Shown here: positions 11 through 10,014 of the stretch, one piece after another
Layout: each line of letters begins with the position of its first letter
Numbering within the stretch: the stretch's first letter is position 1
From: Bacteroidia bacterium
GTDB lineage: Bacteria > Bacteroidota > Bacteroidia > J057
DNA: 64,000 nt
Direction: 5' to 3'
NCBI GenBank assembly: GCA_033391075.1
Contig: JAWPMV010000001.1
Coordinates: 1,736,001 to 1,800,000, forward strand
The notes under the pieces: generated by a model
Database searches by the model: none
The model's input: the letters and a program-made list of their open reading frames with translations, nothing else
Told to the model about the DNA's origin: nothing
Translations under genes and position numbers: made by a program

Positions 11-1159
11 TTAGGAGATCCCGAGTTCATGGCAAAATTCTTTGAGTACCCATTTTGCATCCAGAAGATCGCAGGCTATCTCTCGAGCTTTTTTAGAATG
101 CTTAGCGTGATTTCCCCGGATTTCATCAATCGCAGTCAAAGCTTCATCTGAAGTAGTAAATGCGAACAAACCTTCTCCTACGGGTAAAAAATCTGAATAA
201 CCCGTATCCTGTAAGATTACAGGTCTTCCACTTGCTAGATAAGCGCTACTTCTGTCGCTGAACCAGCCCGTACGATTGGCTACAAAAACCTGTTTACAAA
301 CTGTCAGTTCTGCATAAGAATCCAGGATGTACCTTTTGAAGCGCTCATAGGAAAGGGTCATGGCTCTTCCGTCTTCGATTTGCCAGCCAAAACTTTTTAG
401 GAGTTCCAGGGGAAGCTTTTTACCTGATACTGCTATTTCCAGAGGTGCGGAAGTTTGATTTGGGAGCTCAATTATTTTTTCGAACTCCAGGTCTTTTTGG
501 CCAAAAGTTTTGCCTTTGTATTGGATAGGAGCATGGGAACGCCAATTCATGACCGTTGAGAAAGCCGCATTTTTCGGTGGAGGTTGTACTTCAAATAAGC
601 CGGCATTGACGGGATGTAAGACATGCTTCCAGTTTTTAGATGCAGTAGGAGATGAACTTGCATCTGTACCCACAAGCATTCCGTTGGTAAAATAGTGATC
701 ATAGCCAGATAATTGTTCACCTGCTTCCAGTCTGTGGCTCATTTTGATCTGGGTAAAAGCAGGTTCTCCATCTATCAATACCCTCATTTGACAGCCTTCG
801 GATTCTTCTGCCCAGCTACCATGAGATCCCATGTCAATGAAAAGGTCTGCAGTACGAAAAATTTCCTCAACTTTCGTTTTGCTTAGGCCGTGGTACAAAT
901 CTCCGTACTGTACAAAACACCAATTATTCTCTAATCCAAAGGGCTTCAATAATTCTTTCAGAACCTGTAGTCCATACGCGCAATCATTGCTCATTTCTTC
1001 TTTTATGGGATGATAACAGGCATTTTCGTATCCAAACTTTTCTACAAAGTAGATTTCATGCCCCAGTTTTTGAAAGCCTATGATGTATTGCAAAACCCAG
1101 GACAACATACCCCCTAATGGATATCGGACCATATATGAACCCAGAACTATCCGTGCCAT
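11..1159 (-). CDS. Glycosyltransferase family 1-like protein (paralogue A)
   Basis: A 382-residue cytosolic protein, last gene of the minus-strand glycan operon; the stop codon lies 10 bases from the window edge. It resembles a GT-B fold glycosyltransferase. The N-terminus has the usual opening of such enzymes (GSYMVRYPLGGMLSW, then GLxxLGHEIYFVE). The C-terminal half has a donor-site-like stretch WFSDRSSAYLASGRPVILQD followed by GEGLFAF. The same landmarks, including a TVMNW...GQKD block at about residues 200-225, occur in the 410-residue product at 2046-3278, so the two are paralogues. Its start overlaps the upstream gene by 13 bases. Sugar donor and acceptor are unknown. The transferase class is well supported; the exact family is not. 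Confidence 0.75.
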   Translation of the reverse strand: MARIVLGSYMVRYPLGGMLSWVLQYIIGFQKLGHEIYFVEKFGYENACYHPIKEEMSNDCAYGLQVLKELLKPFGLENNWCFVQYGDLYHGLSKTKVEEIFRTADLFIDMGSHGSWAEESEGCQMRVLIDGEPAFTQIKMSHRLEAGEQLSGYDHYFTNGMLVGTDASSSPTASKNWKHVLHPVNAGLFEVQPPPKNAAFSTVMNWRSHAPIQYKGKTFGQKDLEFEKIIELPNQTSAPLEIAVSGKKLPLELLKSFGWQIEDGRAMTLSYERFKRYILDSYAELTVCKQVFVANRTGWFSDRSSAYLASGRPVILQDTGYSDFLPVGEGLFAFTTSDEALTAIDEIRGNHAKHSKKAREIACDLLDAKWVLKEFCHELGIS

Positions 1160-2049
1160 AATTTTTCAGATAATAGGTAGCCTTGCAATTCCCCTTTCAG
1201 AGACTTTATTTTTTCTTTTGCATTTTTGCTAATCGTTTGGCTAAGTTTTCTGGTATTGCTTTCCAGACATTGGTCAAATGCCTGAGAAAGCCTCAGCGGG
1301 TCTATCTGGTCGGCATGAAATAGAATGGGCCATCCCAGTTCCATTACTTGTCGACTAATTTTGGCTCCTCCCCGAATTGGATCAATGGGTATGGGAGGCA
1401 CCCCATTTTTCAAGCTTAAAACTGTGCCATGAAGTCGAGTCGTTAGGACCAGGTCCATACGCGCGATCAAATTCTCTACTTCTGCCGGAGTACGAAGGCC
1501 ACCCGCATTATTTTCCAAAGCCGTGTCTATAGGGACAACCGCCATTTCACGTGACTGAATGAGTTTCTCGAAAGCTGAATTGGCGAATTCATGCAGGGCA
1601 TTCTCTCCGTATTCTTTTTGCTTATGGGCTAAGATCAATCCTACCACGGGAACTTGTTGGATAGATGCCGCCAGAGTAAAATCGGGATTGGCCATACGAG
1701 AACTGTCTCGTTCCAACAAAAAATCAAATGGATTCCACTCGTCAAGAGATTGGAGCATCGTAAGGTTAAGACCAATGTGTTTGCATGCCTTGAATTTCTC
1801 GAGAAATTCGGTGATCGGCCATCCATTCCCATACGGACCACAAACAAATATCACATGAGAGTATTTCTCTGGGCTTGCTTCCTCCCATAAAATACCTTCA
1901 CCAAAACTGGGTAGGCAGGCAAATTCGAATGGGATGTGTTTTTCATCCAACCAGCTACCCACCAAATCTCTCGCTATGAGATCACCTGCAGTTGCTCCCA
2001 TTCCCTCGAAACTGAACCAACCACTAATCAGTACATTCAAATTGCTCAT
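1147..2049 (-). CDS. Polysaccharide pyruvyl transferase family protein
   Basis: A 300-residue protein resembling the polysaccharide pyruvyl transferase family, which adds ketal-linked pyruvate from phosphoenolpyruvate to sugars of exopolysaccharides or wall polymers. Visible landmarks are the N-terminal ISGWFSFEGMGATAGD loop, a central VVGLIL strand and the family-typical LVLTTRLHGTVLSLKNGVPP with its Arg-Leu-His-Gly at about residues 204-207. It lies between two paralogous glycosyltransferases. It overlaps the upstream one by 4 bases (ATGA) and the downstream one by 13, implying translational coupling. The family also includes transferases with other substrates and proteins involved in wall or S-layer attachment, so pyruvylation is inferred rather than shown. 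Confidence 0.8.
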   Translation of the reverse strand: MSNLNVLISGWFSFEGMGATAGDLIARDLVGSWLDEKHIPFEFACLPSFGEGILWEEASPEKYSHVIFVCGPYGNGWPITEFLEKFKACKHIGLNLTMLQSLDEWNPFDFLLERDSSRMANPDFTLAASIQQVPVVGLILAHKQKEYGENALHEFANSAFEKLIQSREMAVVPIDTALENNAGGLRTPAEVENLIARMDLVLTTRLHGTVLSLKNGVPPIPIDPIRGGAKISRQVMELGWPILFHADQIDPLRLSQAFDQCLESNTRKLSQTISKNAKEKIKSLKGELQGYLLSEKLWHG

Positions 2050-3278
2050 GGGTTTGAGATTAAGGTTGATTCGATGAGATGTTGTAAGACTTTGTTTGCA
2101 TCGAAATAGCTCTGAGCAATATCCCGAGCTGTACGTGAATGTAACTCATACTTGCCTTCAACTTCTCGTATAGAAGCTTCGGCGGATTCCATATTGCTAA
2201 AACTAAGTACGCCCTCTCCGGTAGGAATAACGGCAGGAAATCCGGTATCCTGAACAACTACGGGTTTACCTGCTGCAAGGTAGCAAGCGGATCTGCAACT
2301 GAACCAGGCAGTAGGAGTATGGACATAGCCTCCTTTGGCAACACTCCATTCTGCTCTCGAGCTTTCAATGTACTTTCTGTACTGCCCAAAGTCCCTGCAG
2401 TGCAGCATGGGGTTCTTTAGTTTCCATCCGTGATTTTTTAACAATTCTCTGGGGCTTATTTCAGGTAAATTATCAGTCTGCAAACCTTCCAATTGGTGAC
2501 TTTGCCAATTGCTATGAATCATTTCAGGCATTGCGATTTCAAGTGAGACTTCAGGCAACTTTTGGGGCAAGGCCAAATAGTGAAGTAATTCTACATCTTT
2601 CTGTCCCAGCTTGTATTTCCCAAAATGAATAGGAGGATAGCTAGTCCAGTTCATGATGGTGGTATAGGAAGAATGCGAAGGCTTACCTACTTCCCATTCT
2701 TCCATGCAGATAGGTGTCCGGGTAGGCTGCCAATAGAAAGGTTGGTTTTGAAACTCTTCCGACATCCTTTCACCAAAACTGAAGTGATGATCATGGACCT
2801 TTAATCGATCAGTGAATTCTTGTTCGCCTTTCAGGATTTTTACCTGGGTAAATGCCGGATCACTATCAATGTAGATCATTTGCTTTACCGATCGATAATG
2901 TTCCGGATGCATGAGGGTTCCGGAAACGTTTATAAGTAAGTCCGCGGATCGTATGACTTCGGTTCGTTTTCCTTCACTTAATCCATACCAACGATTTTGG
3001 GTTGGAAAATGATAGGCCCAGCGATCTGCCAGGTCATAAGCGGAAAAAAGCTGATTGAGGTGATCAATATTTGCCTTGCAATCTTTAGCTACCCAGTCAT
3101 TTCCCGAAACTCCTCCGTCAAGCGTATAGGGCCATTCTCCTGAATCTTCAATGTAATACACTTCATGTCCCATGCGATGAAGTCCTAGCACATATTGCAG
3201 GTAATCCCAGCTAACGCCACCTAAATGATGGTGTTGAGCAATAAGGCCCGTAGTTATGATTCGCAAAGATGAATTCAT
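2046..3278 (-). CDS. Glycosyltransferase family 1-like protein (paralogue B)
   Basis: A 410-residue paralogue of the product at 11-1159. Shared blocks are HLGGVSWDYLQYVLGLHRMG near the N-terminus, TIMNWTSYPPIHF...LGQKDVE in the middle, and the C-terminal AWFSCRSACYLAAGKPVVVQ followed by DTGFPAVIPTGEGVLSF. The last block resembles the nucleotide-sugar-binding half of GT-B enzymes. It is about 28 residues longer than its partner because of extra sequence around residues 230-270. It overlaps both neighbours by 4 bases (stop/start ATGA), so it is a tightly coupled member of the operon. The two copies probably add successive or alternative sugars to the same acceptor; this is inference from position and similarity only. 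Confidence 0.75.
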   Translation of the reverse strand: MNSSLRIITTGLIAQHHHLGGVSWDYLQYVLGLHRMGHEVYYIEDSGEWPYTLDGGVSGNDWVAKDCKANIDHLNQLFSAYDLADRWAYHFPTQNRWYGLSEGKRTEVIRSADLLINVSGTLMHPEHYRSVKQMIYIDSDPAFTQVKILKGEQEFTDRLKVHDHHFSFGERMSEEFQNQPFYWQPTRTPICMEEWEVGKPSHSSYTTIMNWTSYPPIHFGKYKLGQKDVELLHYLALPQKLPEVSLEIAMPEMIHSNWQSHQLEGLQTDNLPEISPRELLKNHGWKLKNPMLHCRDFGQYRKYIESSRAEWSVAKGGYVHTPTAWFSCRSACYLAAGKPVVVQDTGFPAVIPTGEGVLSFSNMESAEASIREVEGKYELHSRTARDIAQSYFDANKVLQHLIESTLISNP

Positions 3279-5038
3279 GAATTTTCCTTATTGGTCAAGG
3301 CCTTTTTTGCCTCGAGTACATTGCCTTCCAGTTCCGTATTGAGCCTATGAAGTTGTCCATCTTTTAAATGGAGCAATACATCGCAATCTTTCAAGGTATC
3401 CAGTCGATGTGTGATTAGGAAGGTCGTCCGACCTTTCATTAGGTTTTCTACCACCTCCATAATTGCTGCTTCTGTTCCGATATCAACCGAGCTAGTTGGT
3501 TCATCAAGGATGAGAATCGGGGCATTCCTGATAAAGGCTCTCGCAAGAGAAATACGTTGTCTTTCACCTCCTGATAACTGCATCCCCCTTTCTCCAACCT
3601 GTGCATCATAAGCTTCCTTGTCCTGCATAATAAAGTCATGGGCCCTGGCCGCTTTGGCTGCCGCTATAATTTCTTCCCGGCTGGCATCTGGATTTCCATA
3701 CGCTATATTTTCAGCGATGCTTGTAGAGAATAAAACAGGCTCCTGCAATACGATGGCAAATTGGCGACGATAATCTTCTAAAGCATATTCCCGAATGTCC
3801 ATTCCATCAAGGGCAATTTTACCAGATTGAGGTTCATACAAACGTGTCAACAAACTGAGTAGGGTTGATTTGCCAGCTCCTGTAGTTCCTAATATGCCGA
3901 CCTTTTGTCCTGCCTGGATTTGGATATTGATGTCTTGCAAAACAGGAGTATCTTCTTTATATCCGAAAGCCATTTTTTCAAATAAGATGTTTCCTTTTGC
4001 ACGTTTCAATGAGACGGGATTTTCCGATTCTTTAACTTCCCGTTCCATATCAAGTAAGTCAAATACTCTTTGCGAACTTGCCAAAGAAGATTGTAGGCTG
4101 TTTATGTTTTTGCTGATGGTTTCCATAGGACCAAACATCTGGGCGAGGTAGGCCATGATTACGGTAAGGTCCCCCAAACTGATCGAGCCCTGGTTTACAA
4201 ATAAAGCTCCCATGTAGAGAACAGAGGCCGTTGCAAGAGCCATGAGCATGCCCAGTAATAGGTCATAGATGCCTCCCATCCAGGCTACCTTCATTTGGCT
4301 TCGAATGGCAGCCCAGGATCGGTCTTTGAACCTTTGTGCTTCCTGGTCTTCTCTTCCAAATGCCTTGACAACCCGTAGGGCTCCCAGCGTCTCATGTACA
4401 ACAGCCATGGCTGAGCTTTCTGATTTTTTCACCTTATCCCAATAAGTCCTGAGTCGGGTTGATGAATAGCGTGTCAGAAAGAATAGCAGAGGAACGAGGG
4501 TAAGAGCGACCAGAGTAAATTGCCATTGCATACTGGTCATTACATACAGCATACCCAGAAGGGTAAGACTGGCAGTAATAAAGGGGAAGAGATTGTTGAT
4601 TAACAAGCCTCGCAAAGAATAAGCATCGTATTGAATCCTGTACAAAGATTCTGAGCTCCCTTTTTGGTCATGGTACTGGAGCGAGAGTCTCTGGACCTGG
4701 TTGAACATAAGGGTTCGAAGGTCAAGTACCAGTTTTTCCCCCGTCCAGGACTGCAATAGCCAGCTCCCCATTCCCTGAGAATACCTAAGCACAGCTGTCC
4801 CAATAATCAAGAGGGCTGCAAACATGGACACTCCTTCCCAGCTTTCCCAGCTTTCGGGCAACATTAAATCCAGCCAGGCAGGAATAGGCTCGCTCCCAAA
4901 GGCATAATCCAATACCAATTTTATGGGTATGGGATTTAGTAAGGCCAGGGGCATAGATATGAGGTTGAGAATAAATATTCCCAAGAGGTGCAGCCAATAA
5001 GGTTTGGCTATCTGGATTACACGTCTGGTGAGTTTCAT
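3275..5038 (-). CDS. ABC exporter, fused permease-ATPase (MsbA/lipid-oligosaccharide type)
   Basis: A 587-residue half-transporter. An exporter-type transmembrane domain with about six helices (residues ~10-310) is followed by a nucleotide-binding domain. The ATPase motifs are complete: Walker A GTTGAGKS (384-391), Q-loop Gln432, signature LSGGERQR (488-495), Walker B ILILDEP (from 508) and the switch His544. Proteins of this layout dimerise in the inner membrane and flip lipids, lipid-linked sugars or drugs outward. Its place between the fusion glycosyltransferase and three further sugar enzymes suggests it exports the lipid-linked product of this operon. It overlaps the downstream gene by 4 bases and lies 14 bases after the upstream stop. 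Confidence 0.92.
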   Translation of the reverse strand: MKLTRRVIQIAKPYWLHLLGIFILNLISMPLALLNPIPIKLVLDYAFGSEPIPAWLDLMLPESWESWEGVSMFAALLIIGTAVLRYSQGMGSWLLQSWTGEKLVLDLRTLMFNQVQRLSLQYHDQKGSSESLYRIQYDAYSLRGLLINNLFPFITASLTLLGMLYVMTSMQWQFTLVALTLVPLLFFLTRYSSTRLRTYWDKVKKSESSAMAVVHETLGALRVVKAFGREDQEAQRFKDRSWAAIRSQMKVAWMGGIYDLLLGMLMALATASVLYMGALFVNQGSISLGDLTVIMAYLAQMFGPMETISKNINSLQSSLASSQRVFDLLDMEREVKESENPVSLKRAKGNILFEKMAFGYKEDTPVLQDINIQIQAGQKVGILGTTGAGKSTLLSLLTRLYEPQSGKIALDGMDIREYALEDYRRQFAIVLQEPVLFSTSIAENIAYGNPDASREEIIAAAKAARAHDFIMQDKEAYDAQVGERGMQLSGGERQRISLARAFIRNAPILILDEPTSSVDIGTEAAIMEVVENLMKGRTTFLITHRLDTLKDCDVLLHLKDGQLHRLNTELEGNVLEAKKALTNKENS

Positions 5039-5052
5039 CTAGGAGGCAAAGG

Positions 5053-7620
5053 TTAATGAGAAAACTCAATGGATTCGAGTTCGCTCTGGGCTTGTGCATG
5101 CGTAGAGCAACTATAAGCTGCAGACGCACATTCATTTAAGCTTCTTATCAGAACGGTTAGGAAAAGGCCTCCGAAGATTGCAAAAAATATCCACTCCTTT
5201 TCCCACACAGCCAAAGAAGCTAAACTCCCAAAAATGAATATGAGGATTTTTGAAAACTTAGTGAAAACGGCCTTTGATCGAAAACGAAGGTATTGTTTTC
5301 CTCCGGTATGATCTTCTCCTGCCATGATCATGAATGTTTTGCCAAAGTTTCCGCCCTGTATTTCTACATCCCATTCGTCCCAGTCACCTCCATTGTGAAC
5401 GATAAAATTATCTGCTTTCATACCCTCAACAATGGCTCGCAAACGGAGGTCAAGACTTATCCAGGATTCGCACCATACAGATTGTGTTTTTTGGATGTTT
5501 AGTCTATAGTTTCTTTTTCCAAAACGGCGCCAGGGAGTGAGGTCAAAACGTATTCGTCCATGGAGGCGCGCCAATGGTTGCATGAGTCTTAGAACGAAAA
5601 CTCGAAAGCGAAATTTCCAGCGGGAGATTCTGCCTTTGGCAAATCGTCTGGGCACCTGGATTTTGCTGACAGAACTTCCAATATGGATAAATAATAAAGA
5701 AAGGAAAAAAGCCAGAAGAGGTATGCTAAACAGTAAGCTTGACCAGCCAATAGATATTATTGCTAAAATAGCCAATCCTGCAAGTACCAGGTAAAATTCT
5801 GGCATACTGAGGATGGAGAAATATGGGTTGCCGGCTGTTTCATAAATTGATTGAAAAGGCGCTAGCCCCCAGGTTCCGTGATAAACTCTCCAGGATCGCA
5901 TCCAGTTTTTGAGCAAATTTCCATTACCATAAATCCTACCTGACCAACTATGGTGTCCCAGGGAATTATATTTTTGTGGCCATTTCTTTTCAAGCATCGC
6001 TTCAGACCTGCCATATCCGGACTGTTGCCTCCAGAATTTGGATGCACTTGGCCTTCGATGATGCCAAACGATTGCCGAGGGGCTATAACCTATTTTGAAT
6101 CCGCGTTCCTGCAACCTCCAACATACATCTACATCATCACCTGCAGTTACAAATTGCTCATCGAAACCACCAATTTCCTGCAAAAGCTCTTTTCGGAAAG
6201 CCATATTACACCCGGGGATGTGTTCAGCCAGTCGATCGGACAGCAGGATATGGGTGGGATTACCTGGAACATAGTCAATGCAAGTCTCCATAAAAGGAGC
6301 ATTTTGCGGGACAAGATTAGGTCCCCCAAAGGCGCTAAAGTTTTTATCCTTAAATGACAGCGCTAAATAGTGCAGCCAGTCTTTTTCCGGAAATGCGTCA
6401 TCATCCAGATAAACTACGATTTCTCCTTTAGCAAGGAATAGGCCGGTATTTCTGGCTTTTGAAAGGCCACTACTTTTTATGTTTATAAGTTTAACGGGAT
6501 AGCTTGCAGCAATTTCTGCAGTTCTATCTGTTGAACCATCATTTATAACTAAAATCTCGTAGTTGGGATAGTTCAGATTTGTGAGGCCATCCAGGGCTTG
6601 TGAAATGGTTTTTTCACCATTGTAACTACAAAGAACTACTGACATCATAGGCCAATGATGTTCCTTTGGAAAAGGATATTTTTGAAAACTCGCCTGAACT
6701 TTCGCAAGCGAAGGTTTGGGGCTACGATCTTTCCTTGTCAAACCAAATTCCCAATCATGCACTTCCTCACCTCCTCTAAACCATTCATCTGTCCAGGAAA
6801 AAATAAATAATCCTACACACCCTGAATTGAAGGTGCTTTCTATTTGCCACTGGAGGAAATCTGCCTGTTTCTCTTCCCCATTTCGCATCGCGTCCAATCC
6901 CACCTCTCCCATAAGTAAGGGCCGGTCTCCGGCAAGATTTTGAAGCCTGCTGAGATAAATTTCAAAATCTTCTTTCTTTTCCAGATAAACGTTGAAACAT
7001 AACATATCCAGAAAAGGAAGATCGATGTATTCGGTTGTTGGGTAATTTACATAGGTAACGATAGCATCAGGTGCTTCTTCTTTCACCCAGGTGTAGGCCT
7101 GTTTGAGGTAGGATTCTATTTTCTTTTTCCCGATCCATCGGGCCATAGAAGCAGGAATTTCATTTCCCAAACCAAAGCAAAGCAAAGCGGGATGATCTTT
7201 AAGGCTTCTAACTTTAGACTTAAACATCCCCTCCAGATCAGGGGCTTTGTGGTTGTCAATCAGGTATCCGACATATTGCTCCGCTGATAAACCTGCCATT
7301 ACCCACAGTCCTTCCTCATAGGCTATATCCAGCAAATGAGGAGGTGGATTGGTATGGGGAATACGGACAGTATTGATGCCAGACGCTGCCATCTGTCGAA
7401 AATCCTGTCTTAGTTTATTTTTGTCCTGATATTCATTCCCTTCCTTATCAGGTTCGAAAGCCCCATAAGAAACTCCCTTTATGTAGAGTTTTTCATCTCC
7501 TACATAAATGAATTTGGAATAAATAAATGGCCTTGAGCGTGCATTGGAAGGGCGTAATACAGAATTAACCCCTTCGATTTTTGATTTTTTTTCCTCTAGA
7601 GAGAGGGATGCCATATCCAT
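5053..7620 (-). CDS. Fusion protein: GH-A (GH2-like) glycosidase domain + GT2 glycosyltransferase, membrane-anchored
   Basis: An 855-residue, probably bifunctional first gene of the operon. Residues ~30-315 form a TIM-barrel glycosidase domain like the catalytic part of GH2/clan GH-A enzymes. The putative acid/base is Glu154 in GLGNEIP and the putative nucleophile Glu239 in LLMGEVG; WTDEW follows at 276-280. Residues ~326-545 are a GT2 domain with VVLCSYNG, the DGS at 361-363, DDD at 406-408 and GDD at 494-496. Two adjacent hydrophobic helices follow at ~610-647 and another pair near ~780-815, separated by a very basic stretch. No signal peptide is visible, so both catalytic domains probably face the cytoplasm, which is unusual for a glycosidase. 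Both active-site sets look intact. Confidence 0.88.
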   Translation of the reverse strand: MDMASLSLEEKKSKIEGVNSVLRPSNARSRPFIYSKFIYVGDEKLYIKGVSYGAFEPDKEGNEYQDKNKLRQDFRQMAASGINTVRIPHTNPPPHLLDIAYEEGLWVMAGLSAEQYVGYLIDNHKAPDLEGMFKSKVRSLKDHPALLCFGLGNEIPASMARWIGKKKIESYLKQAYTWVKEEAPDAIVTYVNYPTTEYIDLPFLDMLCFNVYLEKKEDFEIYLSRLQNLAGDRPLLMGEVGLDAMRNGEEKQADFLQWQIESTFNSGCVGLFIFSWTDEWFRGGEEVHDWEFGLTRKDRSPKPSLAKVQASFQKYPFPKEHHWPMMSVVLCSYNGEKTISQALDGLTNLNYPNYEILVINDGSTDRTAEIAASYPVKLINIKSSGLSKARNTGLFLAKGEIVVYLDDDAFPEKDWLHYLALSFKDKNFSAFGGPNLVPQNAPFMETCIDYVPGNPTHILLSDRLAEHIPGCNMAFRKELLQEIGGFDEQFVTAGDDVDVCWRLQERGFKIGYSPSAIVWHHRRPSASKFWRQQSGYGRSEAMLEKKWPQKYNSLGHHSWSGRIYGNGNLLKNWMRSWRVYHGTWGLAPFQSIYETAGNPYFSILSMPEFYLVLAGLAILAIISIGWSSLLFSIPLLAFFLSLLFIHIGSSVSKIQVPRRFAKGRISRWKFRFRVFVLRLMQPLARLHGRIRFDLTPWRRFGKRNYRLNIQKTQSVWCESWISLDLRLRAIVEGMKADNFIVHNGGDWDEWDVEIQGGNFGKTFMIMAGEDHTGGKQYLRFRSKAVFTKFSKILIFIFGSLASLAVWEKEWIFFAIFGGLFLTVLIRSLNECASAAYSCSTHAQAQSELESIEFSH

Positions 7621-8709: not shown

Positions 8710-10014
8710 ATGAAGAAAATCAACTTTCTCAGTCCTTTTCAAAATTTTGTCAAAATCGAGAGTTTCAGTGGAATTCTCCTGTTTTCCGCTACCATCATCG
8801 CCTTGATTTGGGCAAATTCCCCTTTCGCCTATTTATATGAATCTCTCTGGCAATACAAAATAGGATTTCATATCGCTGATTTTGCTCTGGATAAACCCCT
8901 CCTATTGTGGGTAAATGATGGATTGATGGCCATATTTTTCTTCCTGATCGGACTCGAAATCAAACGAGAACTCTTGATTGGGGAGTTGAATACTGTCCGA
9001 AAGGCGGCTTTGCCTTTTTTTGCTGCGGTCGGAGGCATGATAGTTCCGGTATTATTTTTTCTGATGCTAAATTCAGATCCTAAGGCGACTATAGGCTGGG
9101 GGATTCCCATGGCGACCGATATTGCCTTTTCCCTGGCAATTTTGAAGCTGCTTGGAAAAAGGGTGCCTTTAAGTTTGAAAGTGTTCCTGACCGCCTTTGC
9201 CATAGTAGATGATTTGGGTGCCGTGATGATTATCGGGATTTTTTATAGTTCCGGTTTGAACTGGGGGCTACTTGCATGCGGACTGGTAATACTGGCCATA
9301 TTTTACTGGCTGGCTTTTCGACAGATTTACCTCAAATACCTCTTGTTTATTGGGGCTGCTGTTGTTTGGGTTCTTTTCCTCAAGGCAGGACTTCATCCTA
9401 CCCTTGCAGGTGTCTTGGCAGCCTTTGCGGTTCCCATTCGGCAAAAAATTGACAGCGCAACCTATTTAGGTATGTTGGATCAAATTGTCGATGCCTTTCG
9501 AAGTTCTCCCAATGCCTCCAAAGTCATATTATCCAAAGAGCAGCTTCAACAGCTCGATTACCTGGAAGATTGGACGGAACAAGTACAATCTCCTCTTCAA
9601 AACCTGGAACATAAGCTTCATAGTGTAGTGGCTTATTTTATCATGCCGGTTTTTGCTTTGGCCAATACCGGGATAGCCTTTGGAGGAGGGAGTGTGATTG
9701 AACAAGGATTGGTAATCACCCTTAGTTTGAGTCTGCTTTTCGGTAAATCCATTGGCGTAGTCCTGTTTACCTTTTTGGGAACCGGATTAAAGCTGGCAGA
9801 ATTACCCGAGTCGGTGGGTAAATGGCAAATCCTGGGAGTTGGCTTATTGTCGGGGGTAGGATTTACTATGGCTATTTTTATTGCTACTCTTGCCTTCGAT
9901 GGAATGCCGGAAATGGTTGATTCCGCGAAAATCGGGATATTGTTGGGTTCCTTACTCTCAGGTATTGCAGGCTATTTGGTTTTGCGCTTTAATTCACAAA
10001 AATCTGTAGCATAA
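8710..10014 (+). CDS. nhaA: Na+/H+ antiporter NhaA
   Basis: A 434-residue inner-membrane protein that exchanges cytoplasmic Na+ (or Li+) for external protons and so controls sodium and pH. It has the full NhaA signature: GLMAIFFFLIGLEIKREL near residue 71, GWGIPMATDIAFSLAIL with Asp137, and AIVDDLGAV with the paired Asp167/Asp168 matching the transport aspartates 163/164 of the E. coli protein. About a dozen hydrophobic helices are visible. It is longer than the 388-residue E. coli enzyme mainly because of a hydrophilic loop at about residues 250-305, as in many NhaA proteins outside the enterobacteria. The ATG start precedes MKKINFLSPF. No co-transcribed neighbour is obvious; the next gene begins 235 bases downstream. 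Confidence 0.96.
   Translation: MKKINFLSPFQNFVKIESFSGILLFSATIIALIWANSPFAYLYESLWQYKIGFHIADFALDKPLLLWVNDGLMAIFFFLIGLEIKRELLIGELNTVRKAALPFFAAVGGMIVPVLFFLMLNSDPKATIGWGIPMATDIAFSLAILKLLGKRVPLSLKVFLTAFAIVDDLGAVMIIGIFYSSGLNWGLLACGLVILAIFYWLAFRQIYLKYLLFIGAAVVWVLFLKAGLHPTLAGVLAAFAVPIRQKIDSATYLGMLDQIVDAFRSSPNASKVILSKEQLQQLDYLEDWTEQVQSPLQNLEHKLHSVVAYFIMPVFALANTGIAFGGGSVIEQGLVITLSLSLLFGKSIGVVLFTFLGTGLKLAELPESVGKWQILGVGLLSGVGFTMAIFIATLAFDGMPEMVDSAKIGILLGSLLSGIAGYLVLRFNSQKSVA

Follow-up and report, generated by a model that had tools for sequence, protein, structure and literature searches.

The window analysed here, a stretch of 64,000 nucleotides (C1:1736001-1800000 of the host genome), starts within an operon that runs along its minus strand. 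All five open reading frames spanning positions 7620 to 11 are present, and the distances between them, from gene 1 to gene 5, are +14, -4, -4 and -13 bases. Gene 1 (5053..7620) codes for a membrane-anchored protein of 855 amino acids, in which a glycosidase (GH) domain is fused to a GT2 glycosyltransferase domain and which has full-length relatives of 43-52% identity in two phyla. It is followed by gene 2 (3275..5038), whose 587-aa product is a type IV ABC exporter, an MsbA/ABCB-like half transporter by its Pfam and NCBIfam matches. Gene 3 (2046..3278, 410 aa) and gene 5 (11..1159, 382 aa) encode two sister glycosyltransferases, 32% identical to each other, and between them lies gene 4 (1147..2049, 300 aa) for a divergent polysaccharide pyruvyl transferase-like protein. 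The initial annotation had placed these four kinds of gene behind the fusion, each within 14 bases of its neighbour or overlapping it, and the reading frames, the Pfam matches, the identity of genes 3 and 5 and the measured spacing of -13 to +14 all agree with this.

The number of five genes, however, did not hold, as the list ends at gene 5 only because of the window edge. The host genome adds five more genes on the same strand (L009:7746-14060, minus strand), which gives an operon of ten. In order, genes 6 to 10 encode a third sister glycosyltransferase, a GT4 enzyme, a DUF2334 deacetylase-like protein and two further sister glycosyltransferases, and they overlap or are separated by fewer than 10 bases. 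The five copies of the sister family found in the 9.5 Mb host genome all lie within this operon. Since the nearest gene upstream of the fusion is divergent and starts at position 8710, the fusion is the head of the operon.

The fusion protein

Pfam recognises GH2_C at residues 36-249 of gene 1 (E=2.9e-12) and GT2 (PF00535) at residues 327-483 (E=3.8e-29). The domains themselves extend over residues 30-312 (6685..7533) for the clan GH-A TIM barrel and 323-560 (5941..6654) for the GT2 part. We aligned 10 full-length sequences, including that of the window, and checked selected residues in six more copies. In all 16 sequences, from two phyla, Asn153, Glu154, Glu239 and Trp276 of the GH domain are invariant, as are DDD406-408 and GDD494-496 of the GT2 domain. 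The latter include the DxD motif (D406-D408) and the catalytic-base motif (D495-D496) which, together with the Pfam match, mark the domain as a GT2 enzyme. Its best NCBIfam match is the mycofactocin glycosyltransferase MftF, at 144.7 bits against a curated cut-off of 280, and the similarity to MftF is confined to the GT2 part of gene 1 (319-554). The two catalytic domains are the most conserved parts of the protein, with 49-54% (GH) and 53-59% (GT2) identity to the window protein, while the loop between the hairpins and the last hairpin are more divergent. We rejected a fusion by chance or by a sequencing join, as 15 more relatives match over their full or nearly full length. A tblastn search of plasmid records with the fusion as query returned separate GT2 or GH matches only, none of them covering 80% of the query.

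On which side of the membrane do the two domains lie? By hydrophobicity, gene 1 has two membrane hairpins, at about residues 607-650 and 785-830 (5131..5802), which flank a domain predicted to be cytosolic; the hydrophobic segments are confined to the regions near 611-647 and 785-828, and lysine and arginine cluster on the intervening loop. A hidden signal sequence was looked for, and neither a signal peptide nor any N-terminal hydrophobic segment was found in any of the 10 aligned sequences, nor was a membrane helix found in them between the GH and GT2 domains. The lack of a signal sequence, the C-terminal position of the two hairpins and the positive charge of the loop between them put both catalytic domains in the cytosol by prediction; with the N-terminus inside, GH, GT2 and loop would all face the cytosol. 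A GH-A domain with both glutamates, fused to an intact GT2 domain and carrying no export signal, had been proposed from the start, and Pfam, alignment and topology prediction are in accord with it. The loop domain (window 5269-5670) carries a motif, GGD..D.WD...EEHG.GKQ, which is conserved in the relatives and matched by no Pfam family.

The GH domain shows the clan GH-A signature, in which strand 4 is followed by Asn-Glu and strand 7 by a Glu. Glu154 (7159..7161), in the sequence GNE after strand 4, is the predicted acid/base, and Glu239 (6904..6906), after strand 7, is the predicted nucleophile and aligns with the E224A glutamate of LaGH157 (9g4n). In the full-length AlphaFold model N153-E154 follow the strand 146-151 and E239 lies at the strand 235-241; this model, built from four sequences, is of low confidence (pLDDT 45), too low to give the geometry of the fusion. 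The GH domain modelled alone, from five sequences and with medium confidence (pLDDT 70, pTM 0.76), is predicted to be a (beta/alpha)8 barrel, to which GH157, GH2 and GH5 structures align with Z scores of 23-26 and rmsd of 2.9-3.8 over 259-290 residues. The closest is the GH157 enzyme of Labilibaculum antarcticum (Z 24.8-26.0, rmsd 2.9-3.0, 285-287 residues, 17-18% identity), identified as LaGH157 by Foldseek titles. GH2 enzymes reach nearly the same Z as GH157, and GH158 comes first by Foldseek E-value. In a profile search of the PDB, GH157 was the best match (E=1.3e-14), yet at 17-20% identity. The N-terminal sugar-binding and immunoglobulin-like domains of GH2 enzymes are absent from gene 1, where the barrel starts at about residue 30 and only GH2_C matches. 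When we looked for a closed pocket or missing glutamates, as far as sequence and modelling allow, the domain was modelled as a GH-A barrel and both glutamates were invariant in 16 of 16 sequences; a decayed GH domain was rejected because the catalytic residues are invariant.

The enzymes of families GH157 and GH158 are endo-beta-1,3-glucanases (PMC10229575, PMC7157763). In GH158 one catalytic glutamate, preceded by an Asn, comes after strand 4 and the other after strand 7, and mutation of any of the three residues abolishes activity (PMC7157763). The gene 1 domain shares this arrangement, and LaGH157 and BuGH158 are its closest solved folds, with glutamates after the same two strands. These enzymes differ from gene 1 in being degradative and without a GT2 fusion, and their identity to its GH domain is only about 17-20%. 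Because both families are endo-beta-1,3-glucanases, a beta-glucan-like substrate may be taken as a fair first guess for the GH domain, but no more than that.

The exporter, the sister glycosyltransferases and the modifying enzymes

Gene 2 has the Pfam membrane and ATPase domains of ABC exporters. Its scores are 412.9 bits against MsbA (TIGR02203, cut-off 602), 184 against PglK (cut-off 1000) and 375 against the glucan exporter model PRK13657, the last being in the same range as that for MsbA. As all its scores fall below the curated cut-offs, gene 2 was not assigned to any of the MsbA, HepA, ChvA and CphA-associated families of exporters. The class of substrate is not readable from the exporter's sequence.

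No Pfam or NCBIfam model matched genes 3 and 5. Among the 15 aligned members of the sister family just three are matched by Pfam Glyco_trans_1_2, and weakly. Profile comparison relates the family to GT4 enzymes over 77 C-terminal columns with 73% probability, and we infer that its members, gene 3 included, are GT-B-like glycosyltransferases, at least in their C-terminal part. A tblastn search of plasmid records with gene 3 found nothing. The match of gene 4 to PS_pyruv_trans (PF04230, E=9.5e-10) is above the cut-off and covers only positions 237-277 of the 280 in the profile. Modifying enzymes vary among the loci: pyruvyl-transferase-like proteins, hexapeptide acyltransferases, methyltransferases and deacetylase-like proteins were all seen. 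Neither in the operon nor in the other loci examined did we see an initiating phosphoglycosyltransferase, a Wzy or a ligase.

Occurrence and gene order in other genomes

Relatives of the fusion with 43-52% identity are sparse in Bacteroidota and Nitrospirota, the two phyla that were sampled systematically. At a threshold of E<=1e-60 the fusion was counted in 4 of 395 Bacteroidota genomes, in 2 of 198 evenly sampled Nitrospirota genomes and in 10 of 246 genomes of the class that holds the first Nitrospirales match. It is rare even inside two carrier families (2/86 and 2/195 genomes), and at E<=1e-40 none was found in 59 other genomes among the nearest relatives of the host. Within the same 395 Bacteroidota genomes the sister glycosyltransferase family occurs in exactly the same four; the chance of such a coincidence is 1e-9, or 1e-6 when genera are counted, with phylogeny ignored in both figures. 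In seven other Nitrospirota genomes (L060-L066) a more distant sister glycosyltransferase lies in a cluster with an ABC exporter, and at the threshold used none of these clusters has the fusion, so the glycosyltransferase family alone is no marker of the system. The clusters also hold APH-like, phosphatase-like, MurG-like glycosyltransferase, deacetylase-like and heparinase II/III genes.

In every locus with enough contig the exporter comes directly after the fusion or is one to three genes away, and the sister family is usually also present nearby. The smallest set, in L035 and L036, consists of the fusion, the exporter and one sister glycosyltransferase. At locus L012 the order is fusion, exporter, glycosyltransferase, pyruvyl transferase, glycosyltransferase and then a YdjC-type protein; these are the five gene kinds of the window in the same order, although no close relationship between the pyruvyl transferases of L012 and the window is recognisable. 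In a Nitrospirota metagenome-assembled genome (G975) nine of the ten operon genes were matched in order, over two contigs which are not joined, with identities of 47-57% for eight genes and 30% for the deacetylase-like gene. Contig C222 (L072) carries the fusion, the exporter, a glycosyltransferase and the pyruvyl-transferase-like gene at 51-54% identity, the last being 54% identical to gene 4 and in the same position, and on contig C45 (L076) matches to genes 5, 6, 7 and 8 are followed by another sister glycosyltransferase in the place of gene 9. The five-gene order of the initial annotation is found elsewhere by gene kind in L012 and, within the nine matched genes, in G975, where it is split between the two contigs. 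C222 ends, just after the pyruvyl-transferase-like gene, in the apparent start of an IS110-type transposase (L072:7000-7069), which is probably the reason for the split. Misbinning is possible in such a genome; at this divergence the operon represents a separate lineage either way. The same genome has a second GH-GT2 copy, of another type, on contig C15 (L073).

Across 10 loci the divergence of the fusion follows that of the exporter (Mantel r=0.89, p=0.0001). In the two trees the exporters of L012-L014 are placed differently, hinting at some exchange of exporter partners. In genome G653 (L037:9069-14608) the fusion and sister glycosyltransferase genes are split into several reading frames beside an intact exporter, and the broken genes are either pseudogenes or sequencing errors. 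Because its core recurs in other genomes and most of its order in one, the operon is not a chance arrangement. The conserved unit, as read from these sequences, is the synthase-glycosidase fusion, the exporter and at least one member of one glycosyltransferase family.

Discussion

What could a glycosidase do beside a synthase inside the cell? Glycosidases of clan GH-A are mostly degradative or act outside the cytosol. To our knowledge, glycosyltransferase and glycosidase domains are otherwise found together inside the cell in one membrane protein only in the unrelated cyclic-glucan synthases. Cgs has its glycosyltransferase, cyclase and GH94 domains in the cytoplasm, and the glucan is primed by a tyrosine of the protein itself and not on a lipid (PMC10901819). 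Its product is exported by the ABC exporter Cgt, as cited in PMC11842490. The likeness to our operon lies in a single membrane protein with GT2-like and GH-type domains on its cytosolic face (PMC10901819), predicted so for gene 1, and, as far as the cited mention goes, in an ABC exporter for the product (PMC11842490), here encoded adjacent or nearby. The differences are considerable: Cgs, of about 300 kDa, combines GT84, a GH189-type cyclase and GH94, whereas by Pfam and fold gene 1 has an ordinary GT2 and a clan GH-A barrel in a protein of less than 100 kDa, and the ten-gene operon, unlike Cgs/Cgt, has many extra glycosyltransferases and modifying enzymes. Nearest in the choice of domains are the GH17-GT2 proteins of pseudomonads, NdvB and 'Orphan', where GT2 is preceded in the same protein by a clan GH-A domain; their GH17 domain has a signal peptide, is periplasmic and is followed by membrane helices before the BcsA-like GT2 (PMC10237404), while gene 1 has neither peptide nor helix. 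For want of a signal peptide a periplasmic GH of the NdvB kind was rejected, and Cgs is the nearest working precedent. The initial annotation knew of no system with precisely these genes that had been characterised, and our literature search of open PMC papers agrees.

From the gene content, gene order, conservation, predicted topology and conserved active sites we infer the reaction of the GH domain, the direction of transport and the nature of the glycan. We give about even chances to the operon making one exported surface or periplasmic glycan, with the cytosolic GH-A domain acting on the chain built by GT2 and the ABC exporter carrying it out. The GT2 domain would build or extend the chain at the cytosolic face of the membrane, and the GH-A domain, in the same compartment, would act on it as a retaining glycosidase or transglycosidase, by which the chain may be fixed in length, freed from its primer or rearranged. 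The sister GT-B-like enzymes and the GT4 enzyme may add further sugars, and the pyruvyl-transferase-like and deacetylase-like proteins (acyl- and methyltransferases in other genomes) may modify the glycan before the exporter takes it across the inner membrane. A point against this explanation is the risk of a futile cycle when a hydrolase is active next to a synthase.

The initial annotation had instead suggested that a lipid-linked glycan is edited before export. Spelled out, the glycan would be built on a lipid carrier, polyprenyl or another, and trimmed by the GH domain, and the exporter would flip the lipid-linked product as MsbA or PglK do. The exporter does fall in the broad class of MsbA and also matches PglK, and several glycosyltransferases suggest a hetero-oligosaccharide. 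But the exporter scores lie below every curated cut-off, glucan exporters score in an equal range, and the loci examined contain no phosphoglycosyltransferase, Wzy or ligase, which may lie elsewhere in the genome. With an exporter sequence silent on its substrate and a protein-primed precedent in Cgs, lipid-linked editing appears unlikely to us, although we rank it second. Trimming was likewise a guess, since retaining GH-A enzymes may also transglycosylate. As the domains of Cgs are cytoplasmic and the GH of the GH17-GT2 proteins is periplasmic, we favour by analogy a cytosolic role of the GH domain in length, release or rearrangement over editing on a lipid.

Could the GH domain serve as a quality control, removing glycosides that are stray or wrongly primed and thereby reserving extension and export for correct chains? 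Its strict retention beside GT2 with an intact active site is consistent with this, but quality control alone leaves the fusion in every intact locus unexplained, and we consider it improbable. We assign a slighter chance still to a barrel that merely binds acceptors or acts as a scaffold; the C-terminal GH94 region of Cgs has a scaffolding role, too, independent of length control (PMC10901819), yet in gene 1 the four GH residues named above are invariant while the flanking segments diverge freely. Returning to the favoured role in chain synthesis, it is possible, and we propose it tentatively, that the fusion is a new cytosolic bifunctional synthase, its retaining GH-A domain a transglycosidase or chain-length enzyme of GT2, which with its own exporter and an unclassified glycosyltransferase family makes an undescribed exported glycan in Bacteroidota and Nitrospirota. 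In the fusion, a clan GH-A domain which is predicted to be cytosolic and is strongly constrained is tied to a synthase and an exporter, in a set that is met again in another phylum. Should the GH domain have a part in synthesis, the layout of the cyclic-glucan synthases would have arisen more than once with unrelated hydrolase folds, and the operon would open a route to a new bacterial surface glycan and to a glycosyltransferase family that Pfam misses.

The host genome also has a second, different fusion of GT2 and GH at about 4.29 Mb of contig C1 (L010:6911-12314). This protein of 1193 aa consists of a BcsA-like GT2 with GH26-like and GH2_C-like regions, and the gene next to it encodes a GH2_C protein of 471 aa that has a hydrophobic segment at its N-terminus.
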